A DNA stretch of 28,461 nt, taken from a virus. Position 1 is the stretch's first letter. Each line of letters starts with the position of its first letter. Made by a program: the position numbers and the translations under genes. The DNA lies in the IMG/VR virus record IMGVR_UViG_3300006917_002381, positions 1-28,461 of that record; one strand, written 5' to 3'. This document shows positions 4,373 to 23,576 of the stretch, one piece after another. Below the pieces are notes generated by a model. It saw nothing but the letters and a program-made list of their open reading frames with translations. It did no database searches and was not told where the DNA came from.

Positions 4373-4669
4373 ATGAAACCCAAAGAGCCAAGAATATCGG
4401 TCCGCGTGGATCAGGATTTGAAGGCGCGCATTGAAGCCGTGGTAAAGAAAACCGGCATTGATGAAACCGTGCTGGTCCGCAACTGCATCGAAGCGTTGTG
4501 TGCCAGCGTGGAAAAATCCGGGGCGCTTACTTTCCCAATCAAGATCACCACGGAAAAACCCAATTCCTTTCCTTCCCAAATTGTCAGCAATGCCGGGCCG
4601 CCGGCAATAATTAGTCCCGCGGCGCTGAACGAACCCGCACCCCGTTACCGCATCCACCGCAAGAAATGA
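4373..4669 (+). CDS. Ribbon-helix-helix regulator heading the integrase operon
   Basis: 98 aa. Residues 1-45 form an RHH domain: KEPRISVRVDQDLKARIEAVVKKTGIDETVLVRNCIEAL, with the strand RISVRV, helix A, a TGIDET turn and helix B. The remaining ~50 residues are Pro/Ser/Ile-rich and end in a basic tail (RYRIHRKK); they may be a flexible partner-binding arm. The stop overlaps the next ATG (ATGA), so the gene is coupled to the 45-aa membrane peptide and on to the integrase. It probably regulates lysogeny functions from the GGTGWCAA sites next to its start. Confidence 0.75.
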   Translation: MKPKEPRISVRVDQDLKARIEAVVKKTGIDETVLVRNCIEALCASVEKSGALTFPIKITTEKPNSFPSQIVSNAGPPAIISPAALNEPAPRYRIHRKK

Positions 4670-4803
4670 TCCGCGTCCGCCGCCAATACGCCGCCGCGTT
4701 CCTGATTGTCCTCGGTCTGGACATGCTGCCCGGCGTGGCCGGCGCGCTCGGCAAACTCTGCGCCGGCATCATCCTGGCGCTCGGCATCCTGCTGCTGATA
4801 TGA
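4666..4803 (+). CDS. Two-helix membrane peptide, 45 aa
   Basis: ATG at 4666 overlaps the RHH stop, and the TGA at 4801-4803 overlaps the integrase ATG, so ATGA junctions occur at both ends. The product starts with a basic head (MIRVRRQY), then two hydrophobic helices (about 9-26 and 31-45) separated by a short Pro/Gly turn. Both termini probably lie in the cytoplasm. No family is recognised. The perfect fit in the integrase operon is the evidence that it is real. Confidence 0.6.
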   Translation: MIRVRRQYAAAFLIVLGLDMLPGVAGALGKLCAGIILALGILLLI

Positions 4804-5939
4804 ACCGCACCCGCATAGCTCCCCGCACCTACGTTGACGACCGCGGCCGGTTTTGGGCGCGTTACCCCGTGAACCGCCGGTACACATGGCGGTTGCTCCG
4901 TAAGGTCAAAAACAAGCGGGAAGCCATTGCCGCCGCGCAATCCATCAATGAACCGCGCGCGGATAGCTTCGCCGCGCTCGCCGCGCTTTACGTCGCTGCC
5001 GGTTGTCCCAATCGCCGCATGGAAGCCCGCACCGCGGAGTTTATCCGCCGGGAAACCGTGCGCGTGAACAGTCTGGTTAAATGGTTCGGTCCGATGTTGC
5101 CGGATAACATCCGCCTGCCGCTCCTGCCCCAATATGCCACTTGGCGGATGCGCCAATGCCGCACCGCCGGCAAAGGCCAGCGCACCGTGGACATGGACTT
5201 GAACACTTTGAGCAACGTCCTGCAATACGGGATCACCACCCAGCAGATTGAGCAAAACCATATCCGCCACAATCGCCCGCGCTTTCGTCGGGCTGCGGAC
5301 GTGAATCATTCCCGCCAACGGATGCCGGAAAGCGCCGAAGAAATTCACCGGTTATCCGCCTATTTTCTCGAATTTGTAAAATCAGAAGTATTTGCCTGGA
5401 TGAACTACTTTCAAATGTTCACCGGCTGCCGGACCGTGGAACTGCTGCGCTTGCGGATGTCTGCCCCCGCCGAAAGCGCCGGACATATCGCCAACGGTTA
5501 CCTGCACCTGGGCCGCCGCGCCAAGTCCGGCGTGAACCCGTGGTGTCCTATCGGCCCGGAGTTTCAGCAAATGCTGGATTGTTTTCACCGTTGGCACCGT
5601 GCGCGGTTTCCCAAATCCGCGTGGTTCTTTCCCGGCTTGTCCGGCAACGTGGTTGATCCCGGCAGCCATGGCCACGCGCTGGTCCGCGCCTGCCGCGAAC
5701 TTGGCTTGCACCACATCACCCCGCACGGATTCCGCGCGTTCTGCGCCACCAAGATGCTGCGCGATGGCCGCACGCAATCCGAAGTTGCCGCGCATATTGG
5801 CGACAAGACGCCGGCCATTATTGGCAGCACCTACGGCGATTGTCCGGGCGGCGCGAAACTTTCCTTCACTCCCGCGGATGGTTTGCCTTCGTGGATGGTT
5901 TGGCGTTCGCCAGCCTCAAAACTGGCCAAAATCGCCTAA
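4800..5939 (+). CDS. int: Tyrosine-recombinase integrase
   Basis: 379 aa, normal for a phage integrase. The N-terminal ~60 residues are an arm-binding-like domain (DDRGRFWARYPVNRRY...), ~70-180 the core-binding SAM-like domain, and ~185-350 the catalytic domain. The catalytic set is visible: R211 (GCRTVELL), K242 (RRAKSG), H309-x-x-R312 (PHGFRAF), H332 (AAHIGD) and the nucleophile Y345 (GSTYGD). It inserts the phage into a host tRNA gene and, with an excisionase, excises it. The start ATG overlaps the upstream stop. The stop is followed within 5 nt by the first arm-like repeat of attP, as usual for int-attP cassettes. The HTH gene at 2764-3108 is a candidate partner. Confidence 0.93.
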   Translation: MNRTRIAPRTYVDDRGRFWARYPVNRRYTWRLLRKVKNKREAIAAAQSINEPRADSFAALAALYVAAGCPNRRMEARTAEFIRRETVRVNSLVKWFGPMLPDNIRLPLLPQYATWRMRQCRTAGKGQRTVDMDLNTLSNVLQYGITTQQIEQNHIRHNRPRFRRAADVNHSRQRMPESAEEIHRLSAYFLEFVKSEVFAWMNYFQMFTGCRTVELLRLRMSAPAESAGHIANGYLHLGRRAKSGVNPWCPIGPEFQQMLDCFHRWHRARFPKSAWFFPGLSGNVVDPGSHGHALVRACRELGLHHITPHGFRAFCATKMLRDGRTQSEVAAHIGDKTPAIIGSTYGDCPGGAKLSFTPADGLPSWMVWRSPASKLAKIA

Positions 5940-7328: not shown

Positions 7329-7692
7329 CCCGGCGGCCATGCTGGGCAGCATCAAGAGCAAAGCCAAGGCGGCCGCGGTCCGCAAAAACGGCAAGCTTGG
7401 CGGCCGGCCGCGCAAGGACAAGATTAATGAAATCACCATTGCGGCCAATGCTTGGGAGAAAGAGAAACTGGCAAGTGATCCTGATTATTTACCACTGTTT
7501 AAGCAACACGTTTACCGCGTGAAATTATTAGCGGCAGTAGAACGGGTTAAACTTGGCCGGATGCTGACCAGTAAAGAGTCTATAGCTATTGCGGAAAATG
7601 CGCTAAAACAACTCAAGAAAGAAAAAAAACAGCTTGATGAGTTTTGCAAATTACCTGGGGCGCGCGCTTTCTTCCACGATCTGACGCAATAG
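7297..7692 (+). CDS. Small protein with CxxC knuckle and GGRPRK basic motif
   Basis: 131 aa. It opens with CPHCKK (a single CxxC knuckle), then a Lys/Ala-rich stretch leading to RKNGKLGGRPRK, a motif repeatedly seen in small bacterial and phage DNA-binding proteins and similar to an AT-hook core. The rest is helical and charged (about 65-120, Lys/Leu/Glu-rich, coiled-coil-like). No Shine-Dalgarno is visible before ATG 7297. Its last 42 nt overlap the 3' end of the giant gene on the other strand. DNA binding is plausible; the function is unknown. Confidence 0.6.
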   Translation: MKCPHCKKQINPAAMLGSIKSKAKAAAVRKNGKLGGRPRKDKINEITIAANAWEKEKLASDPDYLPLFKQHVYRVKLLAAVERVKLGRMLTSKESIAIAENALKQLKKEKKQLDEFCKLPGARAFFHDLTQ

Positions 7693-10600
7693 CGCCGGGT
7701 CGGGATAGGCGGCCATACCTTCACTTGGGAACAAGTTTGATTCGCGGCCGTCCAGCGCCGCAATGCGCTGGTAATACTTGTTCGCCAGTTCGAGCTCTTG
7801 CTTCTGCTTCGGCGTGAGCGTGGCAAGGTAAACTTCCCGTTCGTCTTCGTTGAGATCGCTCAACGGGTCTTGGTTGCGGATACTGGCGTCCAGTCGTTCG
7901 GCCGTGTAGCCAAAGTCAATCAGCCGCATATAGAACCGCTCCGCGTTGGCCACGTCGCCGCGGTAGATCGCCTTGCGGAAATTGCGCAACGCCAAAGCCT
8001 CCGGGGCGGTATAGTTGCCAAACTCGCTGCGCTTGCCCGTCTTGGCTTCCTTCCAGTCGGCAGCATCCTCGCGCGCCTCGTAGTAGGCCCATTGTTCCGG
8101 GTCGCGCCGGCGGATCTGCAGAATGATCTGCTGTAACTGTTCGCTGGCGGGCTGGCTGTAATAGTCCTGATCAAACACGTTCCGGAAGGTGTTGACCGCG
8201 CGATCATCGGTGAGGTTGCCGAATAACCGCCAGAACCGGTCCGATTGCGGAATGGTCCGCTGATCCAGCACGTCCGGGAACGTCGCCTTGCCGCTGGCCA
8301 TTTCGTAAGGAGCTTTGATAATCGGGCCGGCGGACTGCACGCCCTTGTTGATCACGTCCTTGGGCAACTGCTTGGCGTAGTCGGCAATCACCTGATCCAG
8401 CGTGATCTGACCGCGCGTGTATTCCATGAATAAGCGCTTCATGTTCTGCCCGCCCATCCATTCCGCCACGTCGGACCATGCGGACGGCGTATAAGCCACC
8501 AATACCTGGCCCTTTTCATCTTTGCCCAGGATGATATGACCGCGCCGCCGGTCGGCTTCGCTCAACTTGCTTTCCAGGTCGTCGTCCTCATTCCACAAGC
8601 CCATTGCCACGCCGCCGAACTGGTTCCAAAGCTCTTTGGCAATGCCAACGGCTATCAGTGTGGCCACAACCCGCACGCCGGCGTAGCGGAGCGCTGCCTT
8701 GCGGGCGGTATCGCCGGCGGCACCTTCCTTGCGTAATCCGTCTGCCAGGTTTCGAAGTTGGTTGGCATGATACCGGAAATTAACATCCTGCCAGGACCAG
8801 AACGGCACGGCGTATTGCCGCAACCATTGGCCGGCCACGCCCAGCGAATTGTAATCCCCGAAGGTTTTTAGGCTAATTTCCGCCGCCTTGGCGTAGATCA
8901 GCGCGTCCCCCTCCAAAACCGGCCTTTGTTCGCCGGCCGGCTCGCCCAGCGCTTTAACGTCGCCGTGGAAAGCGCCGGCGTACACTGGCTCTTGGCCCGC
9001 GCGCAACCGCTCCACGTCTGCCAGGAACTTGGCAAAACGGAACGTGCCTTCCCGGAACTTGCTGCCCCGCATGGGGCGCTCGAGGAACTTCCGAACCTGG
9101 AACCAGTTGTTTTCACCGGGGGTCAGGAATTGCTGGAATTGCGGCAATTCCGTCAGTTCGCCCGCCTCGCCGGCGGTGATCGTGTCAAACACGCCTTCGC
9201 GCGCCGCGGCTTTGAACTCGGGGGATTGCTCGCCCTTGTCGGCGTTCCAAAGCTCTTTGGCGGCCCGGCTAAGATACTTGCCCGCGCCGGGGTCGGCCGC
9301 CAGGATCTTGTCCACGGCGTCCGTGGAAAGGTTGCCGTACTCGTACCGAATCCAGTTCCACGGGGCAAACAGCTTGGTTTTCTTCCAAAAATTGTTGACC
9401 GCGCGAAACGGCAGGCCAATGGCGTGGCCCAAGCCGGGGTTGGCCGCCGCGGCTTCCCGTTTGGCGATGCCGTTCAGGGCGTCCGCGATCTCCGCCGGCA
9501 AAGCCCATTGGATCTTCTCCCCGGCCACCAACGCCGCGTGCAGATCCTCGGGTTTAACCTTCAACACCTTGTTCGCCTCGCTCTGCCGAACGCGCAAATC
9601 CCCGTCATTGAACAGCACGCCCAGCTTTTCCGCCATGACTTCGCGGCTAAGAATGTAATCCATGCGCAACGGCAGCTTTTTGAACGGGGTAAACAGCTTG
9701 TAACCGGGCGGCAGATTCCAAGGTTTGTTCCAATTATCACCGTGTTGGGCCTTCAATTCCGCGCTAATGTCGTAGGGTTGCCAGTATTTCTGCACCAAGT
9801 CCACGCGGGCATTGTGCGCCAGCACGTCCGCCGTGTGCAGATACATGGCTTTGAGATAGTCGGTCTGGATCAACTTGCCGCTGCCCATTGGGGCAATCAG
9901 ATACCGGCGGAAGTCTTCTTCCGTGGTCGGCCGAACGCGGTCCACGCGGCCGGTCCACGAGTCAATGACGTGGTGCGGGAAATACAGCGGATTGCGGAGG
10001 CTTTCCGGAATGATCTCGCCGTGGGCGAGGATGCTCTTTTGTAGTTCATCAGTTAGCGCGTAGTGCCGGCGCAACGCTTCGGTGATCGCCAGCCCGTCCG
10101 GGTGGTTCTCGATCAATCCGGTCAGCTTGCGGAGTTGTCCCGCCACTTCGTCCACTGTCAGCCCTTGCGGGAGGGTGATCGGGTTGCCCTGCTCATTCTT
10201 GAGATACGTCCCGCGCCACCATAAATCCCGGTAAAGCACCAGCCGCCGGAACAGGTTAAACGGGTCTTTGTTAAGGTGTTGTTCCAGCTTTTCCATGCGC
10301 TGCTGGATCTCCGCCCGCTTGGCGGGGTCCATGGCCGCGCGTTGCAGACTCTCCCCCAGGCGGTAATAGGTTGCCAGGGCAGAATTATCGGCGGCCTTGC
10401 GCCCCAGCTTAGTGAGGGGTTCAAGCACGTTTTCCACCTTCTTGGCGGCTTCCATCCGGACGGCGTTGTTTTCCACGGCAAACAGCCGGTAACCGCGCCG
10501 GAATAGGGCGGACTTCTCGGCCCGCTCGCCGCGCAACGGTAGTTCCGGGATCGGGCTGGTGAGGTAGCGCAAGCCGTTTTTCACGGTTGCCAGCCATTCC

Positions 10601-13600
10601 TGCCAGGTTTTATGCGTGGAATCCGTGGCGGACTCAAATTCCATGAAGCGCCGGCGGGCCTCGAGGCTGTCCGGGGTCGGCTGGGATTCGCGCACGCCGG
10701 CCGACTTGAGATCGTTCAGATCATTGCTCCACCCCTTCAACATCATCAGCCGCGCCTGTAAATCCTGCCGGAGTTTGACCAGATCCGCCGGCAGGGCCTC
10801 GCTCCGGGCGTTTAGCTCGGTAATGGCGTCCTGGATCGCGTTCAGGGTGTCCACCGTGTCGCTGATCAGCGCCGCGGTTTCCTCCCGGCTCCGGGGCACG
10901 TCCACATTAACGCGCGTGCCCATCGGGTCCGGCGCGTTCATCACGGCGTCCCATTGGCTGTTTAGATCCTGCACCGGCTTCCAATCGCCCGTGCGCTGGG
11001 CCTCGGGGATTGCCGCCTTGATCTCGTTATCCAGCCGGATCAGCTTCAACCGCGTTTCCGTGGACCGGATGCCCTTATGGACGTTCGCCGCCTTTTCCGC
11101 CGGCAAGCTGCCCGCGGGCGGGGTATTCCGCCACATTGGCTTGATCTGCCCGGTGGACTTGATCTGCCGGACCACCGCGCTTTCCAGGTAACTCCGCGCC
11201 TCGGCATCGTTGAAACCTTTCACCCCGCGCATGGTATTGACCGCCTCGGTGATCGCTTCCGCCAGGCTGCGGCCGGCTTTAACCGCGGCCCGGATCGTGC
11301 GCAACGCGGTATTGGCCGCCGCGCGCGTGATCCACGCCGGCGCGCCGGTTACACCTTCCATCATCTTGGCGGGGTCAAACTTGGTTGCCTCGATCGCCTT
11401 ATCAAGCCATTCCAATAGCTGTTGTTCCAGTTCGCGTAAGCGGTCCGTCAAAGTTTTTCGCTTGGCGGACTTTTCTTCGTCAGCCGCTTTTTGAGCATTC
11501 TCGAGCCGCTTGGTATCGCGCTCAATATCGTTTTTAAGGTAATACGATCCGTTGCCGTCTTCGCCCACCCTAGCCAACTCGAGCTTGTTTTCTGCGATCT
11601 GGCGGCGAAGGGTTTCTACGTTTTCGTCGGGCGCTTCGTCCAACTCGCGTAATTGCCGCAATACCTCTTGGCGTTGCGCTTCCAGGCTCAACGGCTGGCT
11701 GTCCTGCTCAAACAACAATCCCTTCTTGAGCGCCGCGCGTTGTTGGGCGGCTTGGCTGCGGGTGGCTTTCCCCATCAGGGCCGACTGTAATTCGTCCAGC
11801 TTCTTGCGGTTGTCCTTCAATTCGTCGGCTTTTTCGAACTTCAACCCCTCGAATTTCTTCTGCCAATCGGCCAGCGCTTTGGCGGCCCGGTCGGCGTTGG
11901 TTTGGGACTTGGTGGACTGTTCCGCCGCGCGCTCGCCAATCGCGGCCAGGGCCGCCGGCAGCCGGGTTAAATCGGAAAGCTGGCTGGAAAGCGTACTTTT
12001 GCCGCTCTGCCAGCCGTATTCAGAATAAGGCGGTTGCTTGTCCGCCACGGTCCAATCAATGTAATACGCCGGCGTGATTTGCGCTTTGCCCTTTTCGTTC
12101 CGGCTAGTGGTGGTCCGGGCTTTGACCAAGGCAAAGACGTTATCCCCGAATTTGACGACGAAATCCCCCAGGTCGGTGTTATCGCGCAGCGCGGATTTGG
12201 TTTCTACTGCGTGGTCGTATTTCTCTTTGAGGATCTTAAATACCCGATCATCCACCTTGCCCAGCGCTGTTTTAATGTCTTCCGTGCCCGTGTAGGTGTT
12301 CTTCTCGCCGCGCATGACGAGGGTATCTTTATCGGCGCTGGCTTTCTTCGCGGCCGCGCTCAATTCGTCATAATCCACCTTGGACCGTTCCGCCCAGGCT
12401 TTTTCACGTTCGGCGGTGTCAATTTCCCGCTTGGTGTCGGAAACATTGCGATAGTAAGCGCTTTCCTCCATCGTCAGCTTGCGGACCGTTTCGGTCAGCT
12501 TGGCAACCTCGAGCGCCCGAGTGTCGCCCGTGGCCGCCGCCACGAGTTGGGCCATTGCCGCGGTCATTTCGCTGGCCGGATCTTCAAATTCATCCCCCAG
12601 GAATTGCCCCTTGAGCGCTTGCAAGGTCATTTTCCCCTTGGTCGCCATCATGTTGTAAATGGGCGCGTCCATGCTGCGCTCTTGCGCCCAAAGCCGGACA
12701 AATACCGGTTTATTCCAGTTCTTGGGACTGTGCAAATTCCCTTGGCGGATGATCCGGCCGATACATTGCTCGAGCTTGGCGGCCGTCATTTGCATGGGCG
12801 GGTCCAGCCGGGCGAGGTAGCTCATGCGCTGGGGCACGTCCACGCCTTCCCCGATTTTTTCCGTGCTGCCAATCAGAATCCGCACCGCGCCGGCCCGGAC
12901 CTTATCGAATAGCAACTTGCGTTTGGCGTCCGTCTCATGCTCGGTGATAATGGCAATTTCATTCTCCGGCACGCCGCGCTTGATCAGTTTGGCGCGAATA
13001 TCGTTGTAAAGATTGAACGTCCCCACGGCGTTTGCCGCGGCGTCCCGCTCGTCTTTTGAGGCGGCCGCGTCAATATCCTCGTTTGCGTCCGGTAGATCCT
13101 TCGCCGCGGCGGCATCGTCCACGGCAATCTTGGCGGCTTCCGCCTTGGCAACATGGTGATCCGCCCCGATAAAGGCCCGGAGTTTATCCGTATTCAGCGT
13201 GCGGTACAGGTCAGAGAACACCATCATGGTAGTGCGGCGTTCCTTGCCTTCCGTGTAGTGCTGCATGATCTCGTCTATCGCCTGGTTCACCTTGCTTTGC
13301 GGGTGGTCGTTGGCGTCGGGGAAGATCAGCCGCGGGTCAATCGCCGCGGCGGCGCCGGCGCGCATGGTGGCAATCGGCACCCAGCTATTTTCAAAGCGCT
13401 CTTTCTTTTCCAGGCCGTCCCATTCGGTGGCAATGTCTTCCACCATGTCCAGCCAACGCTGAAACTCTGGATTCGGGGGCACGATCTTAACCTGCGGGCC
13501 GCCGCCCTGCATCTTGGGCACGTCCAAGCCCAATTCCTCGTTGCCCATCTTCACGGCCAATCCCATGCGCGTAAGCGAGGTTAGCGCGCTGCCGTTCTTA

Positions 13601-16600
13601 AACTTGGCCATGCGCGTGACTTCCTTAAACTTGTTATCCCAGCCAAATTCAAAATTGCTGGTGATTTCGGCAAAGGCGCTGGCAAAGCTGTCAAACGTCT
13701 TGATCCCCATGTCTTCCAGAATCTTGGGGTTTACCAAATGGATTTGCCCCCACAATTCCGCCAGCGTGTTACTTACCGGCGTGCCCGTGTAGAAAAACAC
13801 GTTCCGGCCGTTGGTCTTCTTCTGCACGGACCGCGCTTTTACCATCAAATCCACCGCGCGCTGGCTAAAGCTGGTGGGGATGCCTTTGATGTTATCCAAC
13901 TGCGTGGGCACGGGCAGATTCTTGAAGTTGTGGCTTTCGTCAATATGGATGCCGTCAATGTTCAGATCATCCCAGGACAAGCCGGCGTCCTGGTGGCGCT
14001 TGATTGCGTCCAGGTGATCGTCCAGCCGCTTTTTCATGGACTTTAACTGCTTAACGATGTTCCGCACCTGGGAATCCATCCCGCGCGTGCTCTCGGCGTC
14101 CTCGGCATCGGCCGCGCCTAACTCCTGCAACGCCTGGCGCAACCCGTCTATCTGCTCGTTGAAAAAGTCCTTAACTCCCTGCTCGCTGGCGGGGATGGAC
14201 TTGAATTGTTCGTGTGTGACAATAATATGGTCATATTTCCCGGAAGCGATCCGGGAGAATAAGCGCCGGCGGTTCTCCTTTTTGAAGTCGTTTTCATCCG
14301 GGATCAATACCTTGCTGCCCGGATAAAGCGCCTCAACCGTCTGCCGGAACTGGTCCACGGTCGGCTTTTTCACCGCAATGATGGTTTTCCGCGCCAAGCC
14401 GACCCGCTTCAATTCGCGGTCCAGGATCGTCATTAGGCTGGTTTTGCCGCTGCCCACGCCATAGGCGAACACACAGCTACCTTGCTGCAGCCCGCGCTGC
14501 ACGCCGTCCATGATATGCGCCTTGCGCCAGAACCAATCCGAGACGCCCGGCAATTTGAGGTTTTTCCCGTCATACTCGGGGGAGACAAAGCTGTTTTTCT
14601 GCCGGTTAAATTCCCGTTCCATCACGTCCCAAACCGGCAAGTTCTCGCGCACATACGCCCCTTTTTCCGCGTCAAAATAGCGATAGGGCACGCGCGTATC
14701 CGTGGACTTGGCCCATTTCTGAAATTCTTCCTTCATCTGGTCAACCTTCTGGTTGGCCAAGGTGCTGGCGTCCACGTCCTCGTAAGTCTTGCCGTCCCGG
14801 CCCGTGTAGGTAATGCGGATGCGCTTGGTATTAACCGCAGCATCCAGCAGTTCCGCCGCACTCCGCTCTTGCGTGGCCCATTCCACGCGCGACTTATCGC
14901 TTTGGTTGTACCGCGCGTAGCGGCCGCCTGTCTTCACGGCAAAACTCTCTGTCACCGGCACAAACCGCACTTCATCCCCGTTCAATCCTAATACCTGCTT
15001 GGCAAATTCGTTGTGGATCTCGACCGGTATCCAGCGCGCTTCAATGCCAAAGCGGATTTTCCCAAAGGGTTCAGTCGGCGGGATGATCGCTTTCAACGCC
15101 TCCACGTTCGCCAGATATTTGGGATCTTCCTTGGCGCTGAATATGGCCTTGGCGTATTTGTCCCGAATATCGCCCGCCAGGTACTCGAGGCGCGTTTCCA
15201 GCTTGCCGGTATCAGGGTCCCGAAACGCCAGATCCGCGTGGGTAAGCTGGTTTTCAATCTCGGCTTCATCCAGCCCGGTCAACTGCTTGAGGTAATCCAG
15301 ATCCAGCCCGCCGCGGTACGCCTGGCTGATGGCCAAGGCGTCCGCCGCATTATCCGCCTTATCCGGCGGGGTGTCCACCTGCCCTACGCGCCCGGACAAT
15401 ACGGCCGCCGGCGTGATCGTGGTCATGGACTTGGAAGGGTCTTCCAGGTCTTGCGTGACTTTTACATTTTCCAATCCCAGCAGCGTGTAATAGTCCGGGT
15501 CGGTTTTGAGGTGCTTCAACTTCTGCAAGCCGGCTTTGGTGTTAATCTCCGTGCCCAATTCTTTCACCAGCGCCTTGTACGCTTTGGCCAGCTTGGTCCG
15601 GTTGCTTTCAATGTCGCCCGCCGCCACGCCGGCCGCGCGTTCCAACCGGTATTGCTCTTTAAGGGCGTCCCGCGCGCCAATGTAGAGTTTGGCCCGGTGG
15701 ACCAACTGCTTGTTGTTGCTGTCCCAGGTCGGCAACGTCTCGGTGTAGTTCATGGACTGCACCACATGGCCGGATTTGTTGACGTACAGAGAGTAATCCT
15801 CGCGCTGGGTCGTCGTCGGCTGGGATTCATCCGCGGCCGGCGGCTGTAAAATATCCTTGGGCAGCCGGTCCAGCGCCGCGGCCAGCTTCGGCCCAAGCGG
15901 TCCATGCCCCTCAACGGTGTAACTGTTCTTCCGGTACATCGTGCCCGTGAGTGCATGTTTGCCTAGCACGTTTTCCGGGTGGTTGGCGTAATACTCATTT
16001 ACCAGGATCGGCGCTTCGCTACCTTCCGGCGCCACGTCCACCACGTTCCGCCAGTTCTCCGCCGGGAAGGGTTTGCCGTCCGGCTTCCGCAAGATCAATA
16101 AGTCGGTGACAACCTCGGTATCCGCGCTTTCCTTGAACGCATTGTTTGGCAGCCGGATTGCCGCCACGAGTTGCCCCCGGTCGGCCAGGATGGCCCGTTG
16201 CCGCGGGTTGGCGTCCATGGTGCCCTTGCTGGTGATTGCCACCACCAACCCGCCCGGCTTCACCTTGTCCAGCATCCGCGCGATGAAATAGTTGTGCAAG
16301 TTCAGGTCCGGGTATTCCTTGCCTGGGCCAACCTCGTGAAACGGCACGTTGGTAATTGCCAGGTCGTAATAGCCATTCGGCAACTTAGCTTCCTCGAAAC
16401 CCTGAATCCGCATGTCCGCTTCGGGGTACAGGTAGGACGCAATCTTGCCCGTCATGGGGTCAAGTTCTACCGCCGTCCAACGGGTATTGACCGCCAGGTT
16501 CTCCGGCGCGTAGCCCATGAAAACGCCGCTTCCGCTCGAGGGTTCAATCGCTTTCCCGCCCTGGTAGCCCAGGCGCGCCGCCGCTTGCCATGCCCAATCC

Positions 16601-19600
16601 ACCACTTCCTTGCTGGTGTAATGCGCGTTGACACTGCTTTCGGCGGCCGCGTTAAACTCGTCTTCGGTCAGCAGTTTCTTGAGCGAGTCATAGGCTTTGC
16701 CGTATTTCTTCTGCCAGTTTACATCCCACTCCCGGCGCTCGGCCTTGCCTTCGTTGAATATGTTCTTGAACGATCCCCAGCCGGACCAGGCGGATAGGGT
16801 TTTGATTTCTTCCGGGGTCGGCTGGCGCTTTTCTTCCTCGAGCTTTTTGACGACGCGAATTGCGTCAATGTTGGCCTTGATCCGCTGGGTGGCGGTCGTG
16901 GGGGCGGGATTCTCCGTTAAGCGGAGATTGCGGCGGCCGGACTCGCCGGGGAGAAGGTTTCCGGGTCCAGAAATTGGTCCAGTTGTTGATCCACCGCTTG
17001 AAGTTGCGCCGGCGTCAGGTCGAACTTCGTCCCGCTTGCCGGGCAATCGGTCAGCATCGGTTGAAGACTTTCCTCCACGTCCAGTTCCGCCCCCGGCGGC
17101 TGGCCGTCCAGCATCCGTGCCGCTTGCAGGTTGTACGCTTCCTCTTTCTCCGTCAGATACGCCGCCAGCTTGCGGGTCGTCGCCAGTTGCACTAGCAGCG
17201 CCGGGTTGCGCTCCTTCAATGCCGCGATCATTATATCCGCTTTTTGTAGGCTGTTCAGCATTGGCTGGTTTGGCTAGTCCGCCGGCCAAACCACCGTTAC
17301 CGGGGGTTTGCCGTTGTTCTTCGCCTTGTGGTAATCCGCGTCCGCCTTGATCACGTCCGTCAGGTCGCCCGGATTCCAGTTGGCGAGCCGGTTCAGGAGA
17401 TCCGGTTTCGGGGCGGGAGTCGGCGGGTTTTTCGGAAGGTTTTTCGCGTTCATTTTGCCCAATCCTTACAAAAGAATCATAGGCTTGTTGGTCTAAAATT
17501 ACAAGCCCATTCTTGTCTTTTTTCGCAATTAAATACGCGCCGCCGGCCTCTTTTGGGCGGTTGTTATCGTAGAGCAAAAGCAAGTCTAAATGGCCCTCGT
17601 CCACCAGTTCCAAATATCTGTGCCAGCTTTTGGAATAGCCAACGTGCCCGGCCCGGTTCACGTCCTCGGGCAAGTGCCGGCCGGTTTGAATTTCCCGCTG
17701 ATGCGCGCGCCTTATCGCTTCGTCCGGGTGAACGGTTACCCCCATCATTACCGTTTGATGCCCGGCTTTCTTGGCTTCGATGATCAAAAAGCTATCGTCC
17801 CCGTGATGGCTCATGGTGGCGTCATACACGCCGGATTTCTTTTCGTGGACCAACCGCGCGAACGCGGCTTTGGCCATGAACGTGGATTCTTTGTGGACGA
17901 TCACCGCCGCGCGTGGATCGCCGGCCGCCCGGATGCTTTCGTATTCCGGTATGCCGGCCGCGCCGGCGCGCTCCACGTCACCTTCCCCGGTTTTGAAGTC
18001 GTCCGCCGATATGGAAACCGTCTTTTCGGATTCGATCTCGCCGGTGGCGATCGCTTTTTTCAGCACCGTGGATTTACCCGCCGCCGGACCGCCGCCGGAA
18101 AAGATCATGGTCGGCTTGGTGCCGTCCGCGTGTGGTTCAACCAGGCCGGTTACTTTCTTGATCTGCACCAACTGCCAGTTGTGCCGCGGCGTGCCGTCCT
18201 CCATCGTCAACCGTTCGAGGGTCGGCGTTAAATCCGTGCCGAACGTGGCCAGCAATTTTTCGCGCGCGCCCTTCCAAAGCTGCACCTTGCCCTTGGCTTT
18301 CTCGGTGTTCAGCTTGCCGATCACCGCGATATTGTCCGCAATGTCCGCCAGCTTGCTCTGCACCGCGTCCCGGTTCTGACTCAACCGCGCGATATACTGA
18401 TCGTAAGTCTCGCTGTCTTTGCGCCACGTTTCCGCGTCCACCGCGTCCGCGATGCGGTCGCCAAACTTCTGCCGGATCTCGTCCAGCGTGGTGTTGGTGT
18501 CCTCTACAATGTCGTGGAGATACGCGATCGCTTTCAACACGGGATCGTGAACCATGTCCGCCACGCGCTCTATATGCTCGCTGGCCAGATCGCCGGCGTG
18601 CCGGCGGACACCTACAAACCTTTCCAACATCAGCGCCTTGGCGCGCGCGGCCACGTCGTCCGCGCCGGGCTCGGTCTGGTTCGCGGTGGCGGTGGCTGCG
18701 TCTTTCTTAATCTCTTGTAGCTCTGGTTTTTCCGGCGCTTGCGCGGGCGCGTTCAAAGCGTCCAATTCCGCTTGCTTGCGGGAAATCTTGTTTTCCAACG
18801 CCTGCAACGAATGACCGTGATCGTTGATGGCCATGTCCTCGGCCACGGGCAATCCCTGCTTCAACTGCTTCAATTCCGCTTCGATGGCCTTGACGGACCG
18901 CGCCGGCTTTTGCGGTTTCACGGGCGCGGCCGCCGGCTGGGTTTCTTTAACCTCGGGGGTTAAAGGTTTCGCTTCACCCTTGGCGGTGAGCACCACCGAT
19001 ACCATGTGCGTTTTCTTGCGCGGCACATTGAGTTGCGCCACGGCTTTCTGTTGCGCGGCGTAGGTGGTTGGCGCTTGAACCTCGATCTTCTTTCCGTTGT
19101 AGAAAACATCGTAGGTGTTCAGCGCCGGCGTGGGCGGGGTTTCAATTTCGGCCAAAGTACCATCCGGCATCCGTTTGGCGGGAACGTCTTTTGTATAGTA
19201 ACTGCCGTCCGGGTTCTCGATTCTTTTCTTAACCGTGAGATTGCTTTCCGCCGGCGGATTGGCTGACTTCAACGAGCTCACCTTGCGCACTACCCAATAC
19301 AGCGGTTCGCCGGTAGTCAGGTCCGTGCCGGCGTGCATGGTGACGTGCGTTTCAGAGTTCCATTTAGAGAAGTCCGCTTCCGTAATCGGCTTGTCTGTTG
19401 CGGCAAGGTCCGGTTTCGGCACGTCCAGCTTGATTTTGTTGGCGGCCGGCGTCTCGCTTCTACTCTTTTCGGGTAGAACCGAATTGGCGGGCGGCGGCGC
19501 CTGGGTTGCCAACGTCGCCTTGAGATTCTGCAGCCGCGCCTTGTCCTTCTTGGATAGCACGCCTACTTCCGCGGCGGCTTCCAGTTCCGCTATCTGATCC

Positions 19601-21135
19601 TGGATCTTACTGATCCGGGGCGAGGGATCATTCGGCTTTGGCGCGTCCAACTGGATTTTCTTAACGTCCGGCAGATCATCAAACGGCGTCGGGGTGGATT
19701 GTTGGGCAGGCGCGGCGGGAGTCGTCGCCGCACCCGTAAGATTGCCCTGGGGTAACACACTCTCAACCTTAGAAGGCAACTCCGAAGGCGCCGCCGGCGG
19801 GGGAGCAACAAGGTCCTGTTCCGCGCCGGGCAGATTGGCCAACGCCGCGCGCACGCTCGCCGGATCAGACTTGGCCGCCGGGGCGGGCGGTACAACCTGC
19901 GTCGCCGGGGCGGGGGTGTTGCGCGTTTCTGCAACGGGCTTGGCCGCCGGGGCGGGCGGTGGGGGGGTGGCCGGCGTCGGCGTGGCGGTCGGCTGGGTAT
20001 AAGGCACGCCCGCCTTTTTGGCAAAAGCCGCCACTTTTTCCGGGGTAGTCCCGGCCACTTCGGGGGAAACACCGCCGAACAATACCCGGGCTTCCGGGGA
20101 AAACTCACGTTTCCCGTTCGCGCCCTGTTTTTTAACGCTTTCGCGCAAGTTGGCGGCGATTTCTTCGGTAGCTTGCTGGAAGGCTTCGCGCGCGGCGGCT
20201 TGCTGTTTGGGCTCGGCCAGGCCGGCCAAGCCGGGAATACCCAAAGCGCCCAAGGTGATGGTCTGCTCGGCAAACTTCTTGAAAAACTCGGTGGGGTTTT
20301 CCTGGTACAACTGCCAGTATTCCGGCGTATTCAGGGCGTGCCCGAACGCCTGGATGCCCGCCTGTTCGCCGGCCAGGCCAATGGCCCGCGCGCCCATTTC
20401 ATTTACCAACCCGCGCGCCATCAGTTTTTCCGCCACCTTCTTGCCAACCAGCTTGCCCCATTGGCCGGCATACGGGAATAGCGCGCCCAGCGCCGCGGAT
20501 TCTACGGCCGCGCCCGGCGACCGGGTATCGGCGTAAGTACTCGCCCCGAATACCGCCGGCGCGGCGGCCCCGGCCGGGATGCCTAATGGCGCCGCCAAAC
20601 CAGTACCCAGCAACGTGCCGGCGAGCTTTACCGCCCCGCCCGCGCCGCGTTCCAGCACGCCCACGATCCCCGGGGCTTGGGCGGCTTCAATTTCGGTGGG
20701 GAGTAGCGGGACGGTTGTCGGCATGTCGGCCACGGCCAGATTTTCCGCGCGCCCGCCCCCGGCCACGCGCCCAATATCGGCCGGGATTGCCAGCAAGGTC
20801 CGGCCCATTGAGGAAAAGGGAGATCCGGCAGCCGCGGCAATATCGCTGGGCAACGAAGGGGCAGGTAGATCGGGGGTGCTGATAATCTTCGCCAGCCGGG
20901 CGAATTGCGCTTGCCCCTCCGGGGTGGTGGCCATTGGCGCGAATTTTTGCGCGAAAGACTGCTCGATCATCGGCCGCACCGCCTGTTCCCCTAAAAAGTT
21001 CAGGGCGGCAAGTTCGTTGCTACTGCTGGGGATCTTCACCTGGGCGTTAATCGCGGGCGAAGTATCTGGCAGATCGTCAAACGGGTTTGCGGTAGCTACT
21101 GGCGCATCCGGTAGATCGTCAAAAGGATTTGGCAT
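7651..21135 (-). CDS. Giant polyvalent virion protein: HD hydrolase, Zeta kinase, N6-methylase, SNF2 helicase
   Basis: 4494 aa, one uninterrupted frame. N terminus: two NPFDDLPD motifs (residues 3-24) and a third PFDDLPD at 484-490, with Pro-rich linkers (~375-430). Residues ~840-945 are a SpoT/Mesh1-like HD domain: H854, H874-D875, E878-D879 and D931. Residues ~1005-1205 are a Zeta-toxin-type kinase with the P-loop GGGPAAGKST (K1021), SADDF and TGRHLPEDV. A Gly/Pro/Arg-rich linker follows (~1225-1415). Residues ~1440-1680 are an N6-adenine methyltransferase (WSGWGSF, EPSSGSGVF at 1531, NVPF at 1596). Residues ~2205-2830 are an SNF2/SF2 helicase (GVGSGKTS with K2231, DESH at 2399, TGTPVSN, GRIIRQGN near 2797). 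Then come charged coiled segments (~2830-3200) and a C-terminal ~1100 residues with a membrane helix at ~4149-4170. The position after three internal virion genes implies packaging and injection, as known for P1 DarB and other polyvalent proteins. Likely role: protecting incoming DNA and countering host defence. Confidence 0.88.
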   Translation of the reverse strand: MPNPFDDLPDAPVATANPFDDLPDTSPAINAQVKIPSSSNELAALNFLGEQAVRPMIEQSFAQKFAPMATTPEGQAQFARLAKIISTPDLPAPSLPSDIAAAAGSPFSSMGRTLLAIPADIGRVAGGGRAENLAVADMPTTVPLLPTEIEAAQAPGIVGVLERGAGGAVKLAGTLLGTGLAAPLGIPAGAAAPAVFGASTYADTRSPGAAVESAALGALFPYAGQWGKLVGKKVAEKLMARGLVNEMGARAIGLAGEQAGIQAFGHALNTPEYWQLYQENPTEFFKKFAEQTITLGALGIPGLAGLAEPKQQAAAREAFQQATEEIAANLRESVKKQGANGKREFSPEARVLFGGVSPEVAGTTPEKVAAFAKKAGVPYTQPTATPTPATPPPPAPAAKPVAETRNTPAPATQVVPPAPAAKSDPASVRAALANLPGAEQDLVAPPPAAPSELPSKVESVLPQGNLTGAATTPAAPAQQSTPTPFDDLPDVKKIQLDAPKPNDPSPRISKIQDQIAELEAAAEVGVLSKKDKARLQNLKATLATQAPPPANSVLPEKSRSETPAANKIKLDVPKPDLAATDKPITEADFSKWNSETHVTMHAGTDLTTGEPLYWVVRKVSSLKSANPPAESNLTVKKRIENPDGSYYTKDVPAKRMPDGTLAEIETPPTPALNTYDVFYNGKKIEVQAPTTYAAQQKAVAQLNVPRKKTHMVSVVLTAKGEAKPLTPEVKETQPAAAPVKPQKPARSVKAIEAELKQLKQGLPVAEDMAINDHGHSLQALENKISRKQAELDALNAPAQAPEKPELQEIKKDAATATANQTEPGADDVAARAKALMLERFVGVRRHAGDLASEHIERVADMVHDPVLKAIAYLHDIVEDTNTTLDEIRQKFGDRIADAVDAETWRKDSETYDQYIARLSQNRDAVQSKLADIADNIAVIGKLNTEKAKGKVQLWKGAREKLLATFGTDLTPTLERLTMEDGTPRHNWQLVQIKKVTGLVEPHADGTKPTMIFSGGGPAAGKSTVLKKAIATGEIESEKTVSISADDFKTGEGDVERAGAAGIPEYESIRAAGDPRAAVIVHKESTFMAKAAFARLVHEKKSGVYDATMSHHGDDSFLIIEAKKAGHQTVMMGVTVHPDEAIRRAHQREIQTGRHLPEDVNRAGHVGYSKSWHRYLELVDEGHLDLLLLYDNNRPKEAGGAYLIAKKDKNGLVILDQQAYDSFVRIGQNEREKPSEKPADSRPETGSPEPARQLESGRPDGRDQGGRGLPQGEEQRQTPGNGGLAGGLAKPANAEQPTKSGYNDRGIEGAQPGAASATGDDPQAGGVSDGERGSVQPASGTDAGRPAAGGGTGRGGKSSTDADRLPGKRDEVRPDAGATSSGGSTTGPISGPGNLLPGESGRRNLRLTENPAPTTATQRIKANIDAIRVVKKLEEEKRQPTPEEIKTLSAWSGWGSFKNIFNEGKAERREWDVNWQKKYGKAYDSLKKLLTEDEFNAAAESSVNAHYTSKEVVDWAWQAAARLGYQGGKAIEPSSGSGVFMGYAPENLAVNTRWTAVELDPMTGKIASYLYPEADMRIQGFEEAKLPNGYYDLAITNVPFHEVGPGKEYPDLNLHNYFIARMLDKVKPGGLVVAITSKGTMDANPRQRAILADRGQLVAAIRLPNNAFKESADTEVVTDLLILRKPDGKPFPAENWRNVVDVAPEGSEAPILVNEYYANHPENVLGKHALTGTMYRKNSYTVEGHGPLGPKLAAALDRLPKDILQPPAADESQPTTTQREDYSLYVNKSGHVVQSMNYTETLPTWDSNNKQLVHRAKLYIGARDALKEQYRLERAAGVAAGDIESNRTKLAKAYKALVKELGTEINTKAGLQKLKHLKTDPDYYTLLGLENVKVTQDLEDPSKSMTTITPAAVLSGRVGQVDTPPDKADNAADALAISQAYRGGLDLDYLKQLTGLDEAEIENQLTHADLAFRDPDTGKLETRLEYLAGDIRDKYAKAIFSAKEDPKYLANVEALKAIIPPTEPFGKIRFGIEARWIPVEIHNEFAKQVLGLNGDEVRFVPVTESFAVKTGGRYARYNQSDKSRVEWATQERSAAELLDAAVNTKRIRITYTGRDGKTYEDVDASTLANQKVDQMKEEFQKWAKSTDTRVPYRYFDAEKGAYVRENLPVWDVMEREFNRQKNSFVSPEYDGKNLKLPGVSDWFWRKAHIMDGVQRGLQQGSCVFAYGVGSGKTSLMTILDRELKRVGLARKTIIAVKKPTVDQFRQTVEALYPGSKVLIPDENDFKKENRRRLFSRIASGKYDHIIVTHEQFKSIPASEQGVKDFFNEQIDGLRQALQELGAADAEDAESTRGMDSQVRNIVKQLKSMKKRLDDHLDAIKRHQDAGLSWDDLNIDGIHIDESHNFKNLPVPTQLDNIKGIPTSFSQRAVDLMVKARSVQKKTNGRNVFFYTGTPVSNTLAELWGQIHLVNPKILEDMGIKTFDSFASAFAEITSNFEFGWDNKFKEVTRMAKFKNGSALTSLTRMGLAVKMGNEELGLDVPKMQGGGPQVKIVPPNPEFQRWLDMVEDIATEWDGLEKKERFENSWVPIATMRAGAAAAIDPRLIFPDANDHPQSKVNQAIDEIMQHYTEGKERRTTMMVFSDLYRTLNTDKLRAFIGADHHVAKAEAAKIAVDDAAAAKDLPDANEDIDAAASKDERDAAANAVGTFNLYNDIRAKLIKRGVPENEIAIITEHETDAKRKLLFDKVRAGAVRILIGSTEKIGEGVDVPQRMSYLARLDPPMQMTAAKLEQCIGRIIRQGNLHSPKNWNKPVFVRLWAQERSMDAPIYNMMATKGKMTLQALKGQFLGDEFEDPASEMTAAMAQLVAAATGDTRALEVAKLTETVRKLTMEESAYYRNVSDTKREIDTAEREKAWAERSKVDYDELSAAAKKASADKDTLVMRGEKNTYTGTEDIKTALGKVDDRVFKILKEKYDHAVETKSALRDNTDLGDFVVKFGDNVFALVKARTTTSRNEKGKAQITPAYYIDWTVADKQPPYSEYGWQSGKSTLSSQLSDLTRLPAALAAIGERAAEQSTKSQTNADRAAKALADWQKKFEGLKFEKADELKDNRKKLDELQSALMGKATRSQAAQQRAALKKGLLFEQDSQPLSLEAQRQEVLRQLRELDEAPDENVETLRRQIAENKLELARVGEDGNGSYYLKNDIERDTKRLENAQKAADEEKSAKRKTLTDRLRELEQQLLEWLDKAIEATKFDPAKMMEGVTGAPAWITRAAANTALRTIRAAVKAGRSLAEAITEAVNTMRGVKGFNDAEARSYLESAVVRQIKSTGQIKPMWRNTPPAGSLPAEKAANVHKGIRSTETRLKLIRLDNEIKAAIPEAQRTGDWKPVQDLNSQWDAVMNAPDPMGTRVNVDVPRSREETAALISDTVDTLNAIQDAITELNARSEALPADLVKLRQDLQARLMMLKGWSNDLNDLKSAGVRESQPTPDSLEARRRFMEFESATDSTHKTWQEWLATVKNGLRYLTSPIPELPLRGERAEKSALFRRGYRLFAVENNAVRMEAAKKVENVLEPLTKLGRKAADNSALATYYRLGESLQRAAMDPAKRAEIQQRMEKLEQHLNKDPFNLFRRLVLYRDLWWRGTYLKNEQGNPITLPQGLTVDEVAGQLRKLTGLIENHPDGLAITEALRRHYALTDELQKSILAHGEIIPESLRNPLYFPHHVIDSWTGRVDRVRPTTEEDFRRYLIAPMGSGKLIQTDYLKAMYLHTADVLAHNARVDLVQKYWQPYDISAELKAQHGDNWNKPWNLPPGYKLFTPFKKLPLRMDYILSREVMAEKLGVLFNDGDLRVRQSEANKVLKVKPEDLHAALVAGEKIQWALPAEIADALNGIAKREAAAANPGLGHAIGLPFRAVNNFWKKTKLFAPWNWIRYEYGNLSTDAVDKILAADPGAGKYLSRAAKELWNADKGEQSPEFKAAAREGVFDTITAGEAGELTELPQFQQFLTPGENNWFQVRKFLERPMRGSKFREGTFRFAKFLADVERLRAGQEPVYAGAFHGDVKALGEPAGEQRPVLEGDALIYAKAAEISLKTFGDYNSLGVAGQWLRQYAVPFWSWQDVNFRYHANQLRNLADGLRKEGAAGDTARKAALRYAGVRVVATLIAVGIAKELWNQFGGVAMGLWNEDDDLESKLSEADRRRGHIILGKDEKGQVLVAYTPSAWSDVAEWMGGQNMKRLFMEYTRGQITLDQVIADYAKQLPKDVINKGVQSAGPIIKAPYEMASGKATFPDVLDQRTIPQSDRFWRLFGNLTDDRAVNTFRNVFDQDYYSQPASEQLQQIILQIRRRDPEQWAYYEAREDAADWKEAKTGKRSEFGNYTAPEALALRNFRKAIYRGDVANAERFYMRLIDFGYTAERLDASIRNQDPLSDLNEDEREVYLATLTPKQKQELELANKYYQRIAALDGRESNLFPSEGMAAYPDPALLRQIVEESARPR

Positions 21136-21138
21136 GGC

Positions 21139-22155
21139 TTACAAATCTTGTCCGGTCATTTGTTTGAAACGGGCGGAAACCGCGCGCGGATCTTTCCCGC
21201 GGGCAATGGCATCTTGCGCTTGCGCGCGTAAATTGGCGTGCGGGTCCGCCGCCGGCGCAGGGCGCTGGGTGGAACTTCTCATAGCCTGGTCGCCCACGCC
21301 GCTATTCTGGCCAGTTCCGGGAGCGTCCGGCGCAACCGCGGCGGGGGCGTTCGTTGCGGGGGCTTGGTCAATCCCCATTTGCATATCAAACGCGCGAATC
21401 GCGGACTGCTTGGACCGCGCATCCATCTTCCGATCGGCTAGGATCTCGCTTACAAACTTGGCGCGCGCCTGTTCCACGGCGCTGGATTTGGCCGCCGGGG
21501 GCAATCCGGTAGCGCTGGGATCAGCCGGCAAGCTGCCATTGGCTTCTGGCTGAAAGGCGCGCTCGCCCTGGTTCAATGTTACCAATCCCTGGGCAAACCG
21601 GCTGCCGGGGTTCTCGCTGCCGGGCGGATTCACCAAGGTTTGGTTCGCGCCTACGCGAAGCGGCGGATTGTTTACTTGCTGCCATTGGGTATCCGTCACC
21701 GCCGCCCCGTGTTGCACGGGCGCGCCCATCCGGGCGGCATACTTGGCCGTCGCATCCTGGCTGCCGTTGGATTCGATCATGGATTGCATCCGACCCATGA
21801 AGTCCATCGCCTTTTCCGGGTTTTTGCTGGCAACTTTGCCGAACGCGCGCATGGCGTTGACGCCCGCCGCTCGGGAGTCGCCCCCGCTGGTCATGGCAGA
21901 TTGCAGGTTGGCAAGGCTATCAGCAAAGGCCGCTTCGTCCGCCTGTTCGGCTTTGATCTGCCCTTGTTTGGCATCCGCCAATCCGGCTTGGGCATGGTAA
22001 AGGCCCGCGTGGGCATCCATCATTTGCGCCTGTTGCTGGCGTTGGGCTTGCTGCGCGCGGAGTGCTTGGGCTTGCAACATGGTGCTGGCCATCGTTTGAC
22101 CGATCGCCGCCACCCCTTGCGCGGCGTCCCCCCAAGGATTGTAGTATTGGCTCAT
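21139..22155 (-). CDS. Internal virion / ejection protein, 338 aa
   Basis: 338 aa, starting at ATG 22155, 7 nt after the previous gene, and ending 3 nt before the giant gene. The N-terminal ~100 residues are Gln/Ala-rich helix (MLQAQALRAQQAQRQQQAQ..., then AKQGQIKAEQADEAAFA) that should form a coiled coil. The middle is Gly/Asn/Pro-rich and disordered, and the C terminus returns to helix (ANLRAQAQDAIARGKDPRAVSARFKQMTGQDL). This composition and place resemble T7-like internal core proteins, which leave the capsid and build the trans-envelope channel. There is no sequence motif that fixes the identity; the call is by composition and synteny. Confidence 0.6.
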   Translation of the reverse strand: MSQYYNPWGDAAQGVAAIGQTMASTMLQAQALRAQQAQRQQQAQMMDAHAGLYHAQAGLADAKQGQIKAEQADEAAFADSLANLQSAMTSGGDSRAAGVNAMRAFGKVASKNPEKAMDFMGRMQSMIESNGSQDATAKYAARMGAPVQHGAAVTDTQWQQVNNPPLRVGANQTLVNPPGSENPGSRFAQGLVTLNQGERAFQPEANGSLPADPSATGLPPAAKSSAVEQARAKFVSEILADRKMDARSKQSAIRAFDMQMGIDQAPATNAPAAVAPDAPGTGQNSGVGDQAMRSSTQRPAPAADPHANLRAQAQDAIARGKDPRAVSARFKQMTGQDL

Positions 22156-22162
22156 AAAATCA

Positions 22163-22903
22163 TCACCGCGGCATCCATTTTTTTATGGTTTGCCAAGGAT
22201 TTGCTCCGGGGGCATAGGAATATGAATACCCGGTAAACGGATTTGTTCCAATGGTTGTTCCCGCCGGCGCGCCGCCGCCCCCGATCATGCCCGTGCCCAC
22301 ACCCATGCCCACTGCGCTGCCCACGGTGCCCAGCATACTGCCGATCCCGGAAAGCGAATCGCCGGCATGGCTGGCGGCTTCTAGTTGCAACGGGAGCAAG
22401 TTTGCTTGCCCGCGCGCGAGGTTGCTGGTCACGGCGAGGCGCTGGCTGGCGTCCGCGTTCTCCACGGCCCGGTTGCTGGCCCAATCGTTATAGCTGCCAA
22501 TGCGCGCCGCGTTGCCGGCTTGCACGCGCGCCCAGGCGTTGCCGGCGTCCTGCGTGGCGGTCCGCGCGCGGTCGGTCGGCGTGCTGACCACCCGGTTACC
22601 GGTCCCCCCGGCGGCATCCAAAGGCACGCCCACCATTGGCTGGGTGGCTTTGGTAGCGGCTTCGATCGCCTGCAGCCGCGCCGCCTGCCCTTGCGCCATG
22701 TCTTTTTCGGCGGTATCCCGGCCGGCGGTGGTCATGGACTTGTTGACGACCGTTTCCGCCTGGCGCTGAAACTCTTTCTGCTTGGCCATGCCTTGCGCGC
22801 GGGCGCTTTCCATCGCCTGGCGGGACTTGGCGGCGCCGGCCATCTGCATCCCCGCCCCGGCAGCAGAGGCGGCTAAAGCGACTAAAGCAAGTGGGTACGG
22901 CAT
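22163..22903 (-). CDS. Internal virion protein, gp14-like, 246 aa
   Basis: ATG 22903 has a good binding site (TAGGAGCATT) that overlaps the stop of the gene before. The protein begins with a hydrophobic helix (residues 4-25, LALVALAASAAGAGMQMAGAA), then a long Ala/Gln/Lys-rich helical region, and ends in a Gly-rich tail (SAVGMGVGTGMIGGGGAPAG). A small membrane-active N terminus followed by helices is the plan of T7 gp14 and related ejection proteins that enter the outer membrane. The evidence is architecture and synteny only. Confidence 0.62.
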   Translation of the reverse strand: MPYPLALVALAASAAGAGMQMAGAAKSRQAMESARAQGMAKQKEFQRQAETVVNKSMTTAGRDTAEKDMAQGQAARLQAIEAATKATQPMVGVPLDAAGGTGNRVVSTPTDRARTATQDAGNAWARVQAGNAARIGSYNDWASNRAVENADASQRLAVTSNLARGQANLLPLQLEAASHAGDSLSGIGSMLGTVGSAVGMGVGTGMIGGGGAPAGTTIGTNPFTGYSYSYAPGANPWQTIKKWMPR

Positions 22904-22910
22904 AATGCTC

Positions 22911-23516
22911 CTATTCCACGAAGGTACTGCTCGGACTGGTCACCCGGTTGCCGAACATCATGTTGGAAAAACTCTGCAAGCTGGGATCGTTGGCGCGCGC
23001 CGCCATGTTGCCCAAATAGACGTTTTGCCAGTCGGCAAACATATTGCCGATCGGCCTGAACGTGGACGGCGCTTGTAATCCTGACGTAGCGCTGGCCGCC
23101 TGGGCCGCCGCGATGCTGGGATCGCCACTGGCTACCAGTTGGTTGGTGATTGTGCTCTTTTGGTCCTGCACCTGCTGGCGTAACTGGTTTACCTGATCCT
23201 GCGCGGCGTTCCCCAGCGAAACATTGTTTTGCGCCAAGGCGTTGGCCAATGATCCTTCCCGTTGTGCCGCGGCGCCGGATTTAAGCAAACCGTTCCGCGC
23301 CAGCGCGAATTTCAGATTGTCGCCCGCTTCCTTGTATTGCTGCTGCACCTGGGGGGCGGCGTAGTCCAGATATGCCTGTTTCCGGGCATCGTAAAAGCTG
23401 TTATCAAAGCCGGCGAAACGCTGGTCAATATCCGCCATGCCTTGTTTGATTCGCGCCTGGCGTTCCGCTTCCATTTGGGCCGCGCCGCCATCGCCTCCAC
23501 CGCCTCCACCGTACAT
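22911..23516 (-). CDS. Virion-associated helical protein, 201 aa
   Basis: I choose ATG 23516 (GAAAGGACTCTT before it). The frame is open to 23570, but those codons run through a terminator hairpin. The product begins with MYGGGGGGDGGAAQ, then helices rich in Gln/Ala (DYAAPQVQQQYKEAGDNLKFALARNGLLKSGAAAQREG...). It ends with 'PIGNMFADWQNVYLGNMAARANDPSLQSFSNMMFGN'. Sequences of this style occur among internal or head-completion proteins of podoviruses. It is the first gene of the ejection cassette, immediately after the terminator. Confidence 0.6.
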   Translation of the reverse strand: MYGGGGGGDGGAAQMEAERQARIKQGMADIDQRFAGFDNSFYDARKQAYLDYAAPQVQQQYKEAGDNLKFALARNGLLKSGAAAQREGSLANALAQNNVSLGNAAQDQVNQLRQQVQDQKSTITNQLVASGDPSIAAAQAASATSGLQAPSTFRPIGNMFADWQNVYLGNMAARANDPSLQSFSNMMFGNRVTSPSSTFVE

Positions 23517-23535
23517 AAGAGTCCTTTCGTTAAAG

Positions 23536-23576
23536 AAAAAAGCGCACCGGCGGGGAGCGACTCCCGCCAATGCGCT
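23536..23576 (-). terminator. Intrinsic terminator before the ejection-protein cassette
   Basis: On the minus strand the sequence AGCGCATTGGCGGGAG pairs with CTCCCCGCCGGTGCGCT across a 3-nt loop. The stem is about 16 bp with two G-U pairs and one bulged G, and it is followed by TTTTTT. It lies between the stop of the 221-aa gene (23607) and the ATG at 23516, where there is no space for a promoter. Confidence 0.8.

Follow-up and report, generated by a model that had tools for sequence, protein, structure and literature searches.

Why a phage would commit about a third of its genome to one giant protein, and what the unrelated enzymes joined in that protein might do at infection, are the questions raised by this locus.

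One gene makes up a third of a probably temperate phage genome

The window, that is, the whole stretch of DNA analyzed here, is a complete virus record from IMG/VR, 28,461 bases long. A single ORF of 4494 aa, with an ATG start and no internal stops, takes up 47% of it and begins 3 b past the stop of an upstream 338-aa gene. A second IMG/VR contig of 41,053 b (G001) matches the whole window at 99.97–100% identity, with one or two mismatches. This independently confirms the ORF and, with it, the remark in an earlier note on this DNA that one gene fills nearly half of the window. Both ends of G001 fall within the giant gene and overlap each other by ~126 b, which indicates a circular or circularly permuted genome of ~40.9 kb, ~33% of it occupied by the giant gene. 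G001 further contributes the genes for the terminase subunits and the major head protein. The following features of the window were delimited:

4800..5939, plus strand: tyrosine integrase
7651..21135, minus strand: gene of the DarB-type polyvalent protein, 4494 aa, intact also in G001
18676..21135, minus strand: Gly/Ala-rich N-terminal region (aa 1-820), FDDLPD repeats at aa 5, 19 and 485
18301..18654, minus strand: RSH-type HD alarmone hydrolase (aa 828-945), from profiles, residues and predicted fold
17548..18138, minus strand: Zeta/PezT-type kinase (aa 1000-1196), from PF06414, motifs and 1gvn/PezT profile matches
15856..16884, minus strand: N6-adenine methylase (aa 1418-1760), motif I EPSSGSG at 1531 and motif IV NVPF at 1596-1599
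12736..14598, minus strand: SNF2-type ATPase (aa 2180-2800), Walker A GVGSGKT at 2226, DESH at 2399, TGTP at 2450 and GRIIRQGN at 2793
7654..11427, minus strand: C-terminal region (aa 3237-4494), 69% identical to that of the sister phage L005

The phage is probably temperate, since the window holds a tyrosine integrase. This protein found one good match, in the Verrucomicrobia MAG KTt_bin-1485 (49% identity, E=3e-106), and none in 249 genomes of Breoghania's phylum; the resemblance is a faint hint that the host may be verrucomicrobial. Searches for a host prophage, run without a positive control, returned no matches to the C-terminal query among genome contigs, nor in 388 genomes of a Verrucomicrobia MAG's phylum. 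The window also encodes a separate phage-type Dam N6-adenine methylase (3514-3948, minus strand; PF05869, 1e-28) and, adjoining the integrase, a 98-aa ribbon-helix-helix protein that is weakly RelB-like (4373-4669, plus strand).

The methylase-SNF2 core belongs to a family of virion proteins

The DarB-like antirestriction profile phrog_10089 matched aa 1216-3300 of the giant with E=0 and 1195 bits. A tblastn search located the core in 125 phage records, with Bcep22-like podoviruses and their relatives at the top, and full-length comparison revealed that aa ~1250-2980 are the sole part common to the Bcep22-like relatives. Identity over the core was 27-33% in the giants of JC1, POI1126, LASTA, VvAW1, Y7 and others. 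Judged by its methylase-SNF2 motifs and the unrelated enzymes in the same chain, the giant is a DarB-type phage polyvalent protein, and the profile match and catalytic motifs uphold the methylase-plus-helicase class (P1 DarB) to which it had been assigned in the earlier note. In another family member, L019 (Pseudomonas phage Itty13), the deposited genes run opposite in strand to an open DarB-like frame of >4100 aa.

In JC1, CsCl-purified virions yielded 51 unique peptides of the homologous gp69 (4515 aa; PMC9144972). The window's giant gene sits likewise within a virion-protein operon, with the terminase and major head protein genes in G001 and ejection-type genes directly upstream:

21139..22155, minus strand: gene of 338 aa immediately upstream of the giant, at the place of the JC1 gp68 virion protein (synteny only)
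22163..22903, minus strand: ejection-type candidate of 246 aa (33% identity with the L005 counterpart)
22911..23570, minus strand: ejection-type candidate of 219 aa (36% identity with the L005 counterpart)

Because the homologue JC1 gp69 is a proven virion protein, the giant is probably located in the virion and enters the host, as the earlier note had supposed. P1 DarB is described as a virion-head protein that shields injected DNA in cis and protects it from type I restriction (PMC5512222). By analogy with these relatives, virion delivery and anti-restriction are already known for this protein class.

The upstream genes occupy the position of the JC1 virion proteins gp67 and gp68, and in VvAW1 one gene at this place is annotated as a DNA-transfer protein; calling them ejection-type is reasonable by position only. 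The layout, several small genes and then a very large one, is like that of T7 gp14-gp15-gp16 in position only. In sequence, neither the small genes nor the giant gave any PHROG or Pfam match to T7 gp14, gp15 or gp16, and the JC1 counterparts are other virion proteins. The proposal of T7-style internal proteins is thus not borne out, and nothing was found in favor of the giant doing the job of the ejection motor.

Outside the core, the N-terminal Gly/Ala-rich region is comparable in style to those of L005, L013 and L113, and no murein hydrolase was recognized in aa 1-820. Just the first ~110 aa of the C-terminal region are common to L013. The membrane-containing C terminus that had been proposed reduces to a single borderline hydrophobic/TM stretch (aa 4147-4165).

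HD and Zeta domains with intact active sites precede the core

Profile searches assigned aa 828-945 to the metal-dependent phosphohydrolases of phrog_990 (E=5e-25) and to TIGR00691, spoT_relA (E=1.4e-7); Pfam HD_4 scored 22.7 bits (E=9e-5), under its curated cut-off of 27.2. All catalytic residues are kept (H854, H874-D875, E878-D879, D931 and N935). Indeed, the metal site and the ED pair (H, HD, ED, D, N) are invariant across seven aligned HDs, including that of a Mannheimia phage. The PDB entry closest in sequence was 7smg, which is a (p)ppApp hydrolase, at E=2e-7 for the window HD and E=3e-11 for that of L005. The AlphaFold (AF2) model of the domain (pLDDT ~93) also found 7smg as its best Foldseek match, with a TM-score on target of 0.86 and an rmsd of 1.9; Mesh1 and further small alarmone hydrolases ranked lower. 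In the HD tree, the backbone is without resolution and the window HD falls outside the MuF-linked clade, though its best matches are Aph1-type; specificity for (p)ppApp versus (p)ppGpp is therefore not readable from its place. Its best phage relatives include an HD gene of Mannheimia phage 1152AP2 (37%) that adjoins a MuF gene, which is the layout of the Apk2/Aph1 toxin-immunity pairs, where Aph1 hydrolases are immunity proteins against (p)ppApp synthetases in MuF toxins (PMC12226406).

The Zeta segment matched PF06414 with E=6e-22 and 78.4 bits, against a cut-off of 22.3. It carries the Walker A motif GGGPAAGKST (1014-1023), SADDFK (1043-1048) and VHKES (1080), and further VYDAT (1103), RAHQR (1143) and TGRHLP (1151). 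The Walker Lys, the SADDFK Asp, the VYDAT Thr and the Arg residues are invariant in four phage Zetas. A profile of these four sequences retrieved the solved Zeta 1gvn (E=4e-11) and PezT (E=7e-8) from the PDB, where a single-sequence phmmer search gave no matches; in the structure prediction, confidence in the Zeta half was only partial. The profile searches run on both domains, together with the HD fold and the full residue sets, bear out their earlier labeling as an alarmone-type HD and a Zeta-type kinase.

HD enzymes strip a 3'-pyrophosphate, whereas the Zeta reaction puts a 3'-monophosphate on a sugar. Erasure of the Zeta product by the HD was considered and is disfavored, given this difference in chemistry.

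The slot ahead of the core appears exchangeable

The closest relative, L005 (IMGVR_UViG_3300037882_001335), encodes a giant of 4068 aa that is 60% identical in the core and 69% in the C-terminal region. Its HD is kept at 51% identity and is followed, at the place of the window's Zeta, by a RelA/SpoT synthetase. Pfam did not list the synthetase on the entire protein; it was listed when the segment was scanned alone, at 27.5 bits for PF04607 against a cut-off of 27.0. The structure model of the segment, with a moderately confident synthetase half, best matched the bifunctional RelSeq, aligned over HD and synthetase at an overall TM-score of ~0.3. In a by-eye alignment, the D of SDYLRAR, the Y/H of ALYHGIH and the E of TAELQLQ fall at what we take to be the RelSeq active-site places. 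The HDs of the window and L005 group together in the tree with weak support, and it is likely that one ancestral HD had its partner swapped later.

Because L005 holds an alarmone synthetase in place of Zeta, the slot ahead of methylase-SNF2 looks exchangeable. N-terminal cargo elsewhere in the family comprises SLT in JC1 and LASTA, a cell-wall hydrolase, M15 and inorganic pyrophosphatase in POI1126, InPase in Mwe-JY07 and ddrB-ParB in Y7. HD and Zeta are both missing from the more distant relatives L113 and L013.

How rare the combination is was estimated from two sets of 80 loci, picked by similarity to the core and thus a non-random sample. Domains were counted with profiles built in this analysis, since searches with PF04607 and PF13328 missed the known domains of L005. 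Within the same ORF, Zeta occurred in 3 of the 80 viral loci and HD in two (this phage and L005), and neither was found in the 80 bacterial-genome loci. A Zeta query uncovered more giants, some in which Zeta precedes the core (L196, L197, L204 and L205) and some in which it follows (L194 and L202). In L114 (335-19741), Zeta occupies aa 2463-2646 of a 6469-aa ORF and precedes the methylase-SNF2 core. The remaining HD relatives recovered from viral contigs were all ORFs of 110-234 aa. On these counts, Zeta with methylase and SNF2 is recurrent and HD within a giant is rare, so that the claim of an unusual HD-Zeta combination stands for the HD fusion (two phages), but not for Zeta joined to methylase-helicase, which recurs in viral giants. 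Three BFVD phage proteins of ~1100-1320 aa (A0A516LGL6, A0A516L6N4 and A0A6J5KIV2), one of them named 'DdrB-like domain-containing', aligned to the L005 HD-synthetase model over at least 400 columns and may be further HD fusions.

Two other arrangements were observed. In L157 (IMGVR_UViG_3300008005_000048), a methylase-SNF2-Zeta giant (9338-17841) is directly followed by a 262-aa RelA/SpoT synthetase ORF (PF04607, 41.5 bits), which is a second instance of Zeta near an alarmone synthetase. L243, L260 and L261 each carry a two-Zeta gene (1.6-1.9 kaa) and, a few kb upstream of it, a stand-alone RSH-type HD gene.

Three other explanations were weighed. First, HD and Zeta could be inactive passengers, with the methylase-SNF2 core alone mattering, as in a plain DarB-like antirestriction protein; the core is indeed the sole part conserved family-wide, and L013 and L113 do without both domains. 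Against this, metal-binding and catalytic residues are intact in both HD and Zeta, the HD is retained at 51% identity in L005, and other enzymes (SLT, InPase, M15, ddrB-ParB) fill the same region of similar giants, all of which makes this explanation improbable.

Equally doubtful is a role of Zeta as an entry tool that replaces an N-terminal transglycosylase and weakens the wall for DNA entry. Such a role would fit the SLT of the JC1 and LASTA giants and the cell-wall hydrolase of POI1126, where none is recognized here, and Zeta domains have been suggested to weaken the wall and thereby aid entry (Iyer et al., PMC5512222). Yet Zeta lies elsewhere along the chain in the L202 and L157 giants. 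Moreover, the substrate of Zeta is a cytoplasmic precursor, so it could act solely after delivery.

The main rival reading takes the slot as a toxic kinase (Zeta; in L005 the alarmone synthetase) with the HD as a safety device or as a relic of an HD-synthetase module in which Zeta took the synthetase's place; the aim would be poisoning of the infected cell or of competitors rather than countering a defense. It draws on the RSH order of HD and then synthetase in L005, on the immunity of Aph1 against (p)ppApp synthetases in MuF toxins, with Apk2-Aph1 as a precedent (PMC12226406), and on the Zeta giant of L157 directly before a synthetase gene. Two points speak against it, both weakly: the HD residues are all intact here, although loss would be expected in a mere relic, and the toxic partner in the window is Zeta, with UDP-GlcNAc-3P as its product. 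To our knowledge, the latter is not an HD substrate. We consider this reading rather unlikely, if less so than the two preceding ones.

A proposed role in DNA entry and host manipulation

We favor, at a probability of roughly 0.6, a virion-carried, injected DarB-type protein that couples DNA methylation to an exchangeable slot for small-molecule enzymes, here HD and Zeta. Its computed basis comprises domain identities, active-site residues, the HD fold, the family of the core, the order of the genes and the swapped slot of L005; virion presence we infer from the homologue, and injection, substrates, timing and benefit are proposals. The giant would be packaged together with the ejection-type proteins and injected along with the genome. 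The methylase-SNF2 dyad would probably travel on the entering DNA and protect it from host restriction by methylation, in the way suggested for P1 DarB, while the cargo slot ahead of it would hold enzymes acting on small molecules. The HD would most likely strip the 3'-pyrophosphate from alarmones ((p)ppApp and/or (p)ppGpp) and lower their level, an action that would reverse a toxSAS or stringent-type shutdown during entry. Zeta would most likely phosphorylate UDP-GlcNAc or a similar nucleotide sugar, stalling wall synthesis in the infected cell.

Enzymes that make alarmones are now recognized as anti-phage effectors, and phages commonly encode stand-alone alarmone hydrolases. A narrower proposal, which we put forward tentatively, is that the giant delivers an alarmone eraser whose HD cancels alarmone-based (toxSAS/stringent) abortive defense before phage expression, in an exchangeable slot that in sister phages takes an alarmone synthetase as well. 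We found no published description of an alarmone hydrolase as part of a DarB-type polyvalent protein. Were it injected, the HD would be a counter-measure that precedes phage transcription. HD-Zeta versus HD-synthetase in sister phages constitutes a natural domain swap, which makes an alarmone role at entry testable.

Comparison with known systems

The giant resembles the Bcep22/JC1-type DarB-like proteins (phrog_10089; Lessievirus and relatives) in being encoded by a single giant gene (3.6-5.1 kaa) that closes the virion operon. It differs from them in carrying HD and Zeta where they have N-terminal SLT, InPase, M15, cell-wall hydrolase or ddrB-ParB, and in a C-terminal third that is unrelated by BLASTP. 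With the polyvalent proteins of Iyer et al. 2017 (PMC5512222) it shares many unrelated enzymes per chain and the methylase-SNF2 dyad. That survey lists Zeta-like kinases for conjugative elements and MuF fusions, and the RelA/SpoT synthetase for phage proteins; its main text contains neither 'HD domain' nor 'phosphohydrolase', nor Zeta next to a phage methylase-SNF2 core.

Kinase family and active-site residues of the giant's Zeta are those of the epsilon/zeta and PezAT toxins (1gvn, 2p5t), whereas here the kinase is embedded within a giant chain. Finally, the Apk2-IapK-Aph1 modules of MuF prophage toxins (PMC12226406) are akin in that 7smg is the closest solved structure to the window HD and that their hydrolase gene adjoins a virion-protein gene. 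In those modules the hydrolase is a separate immunity gene, whereas in this phage it is fused into the giant protein.
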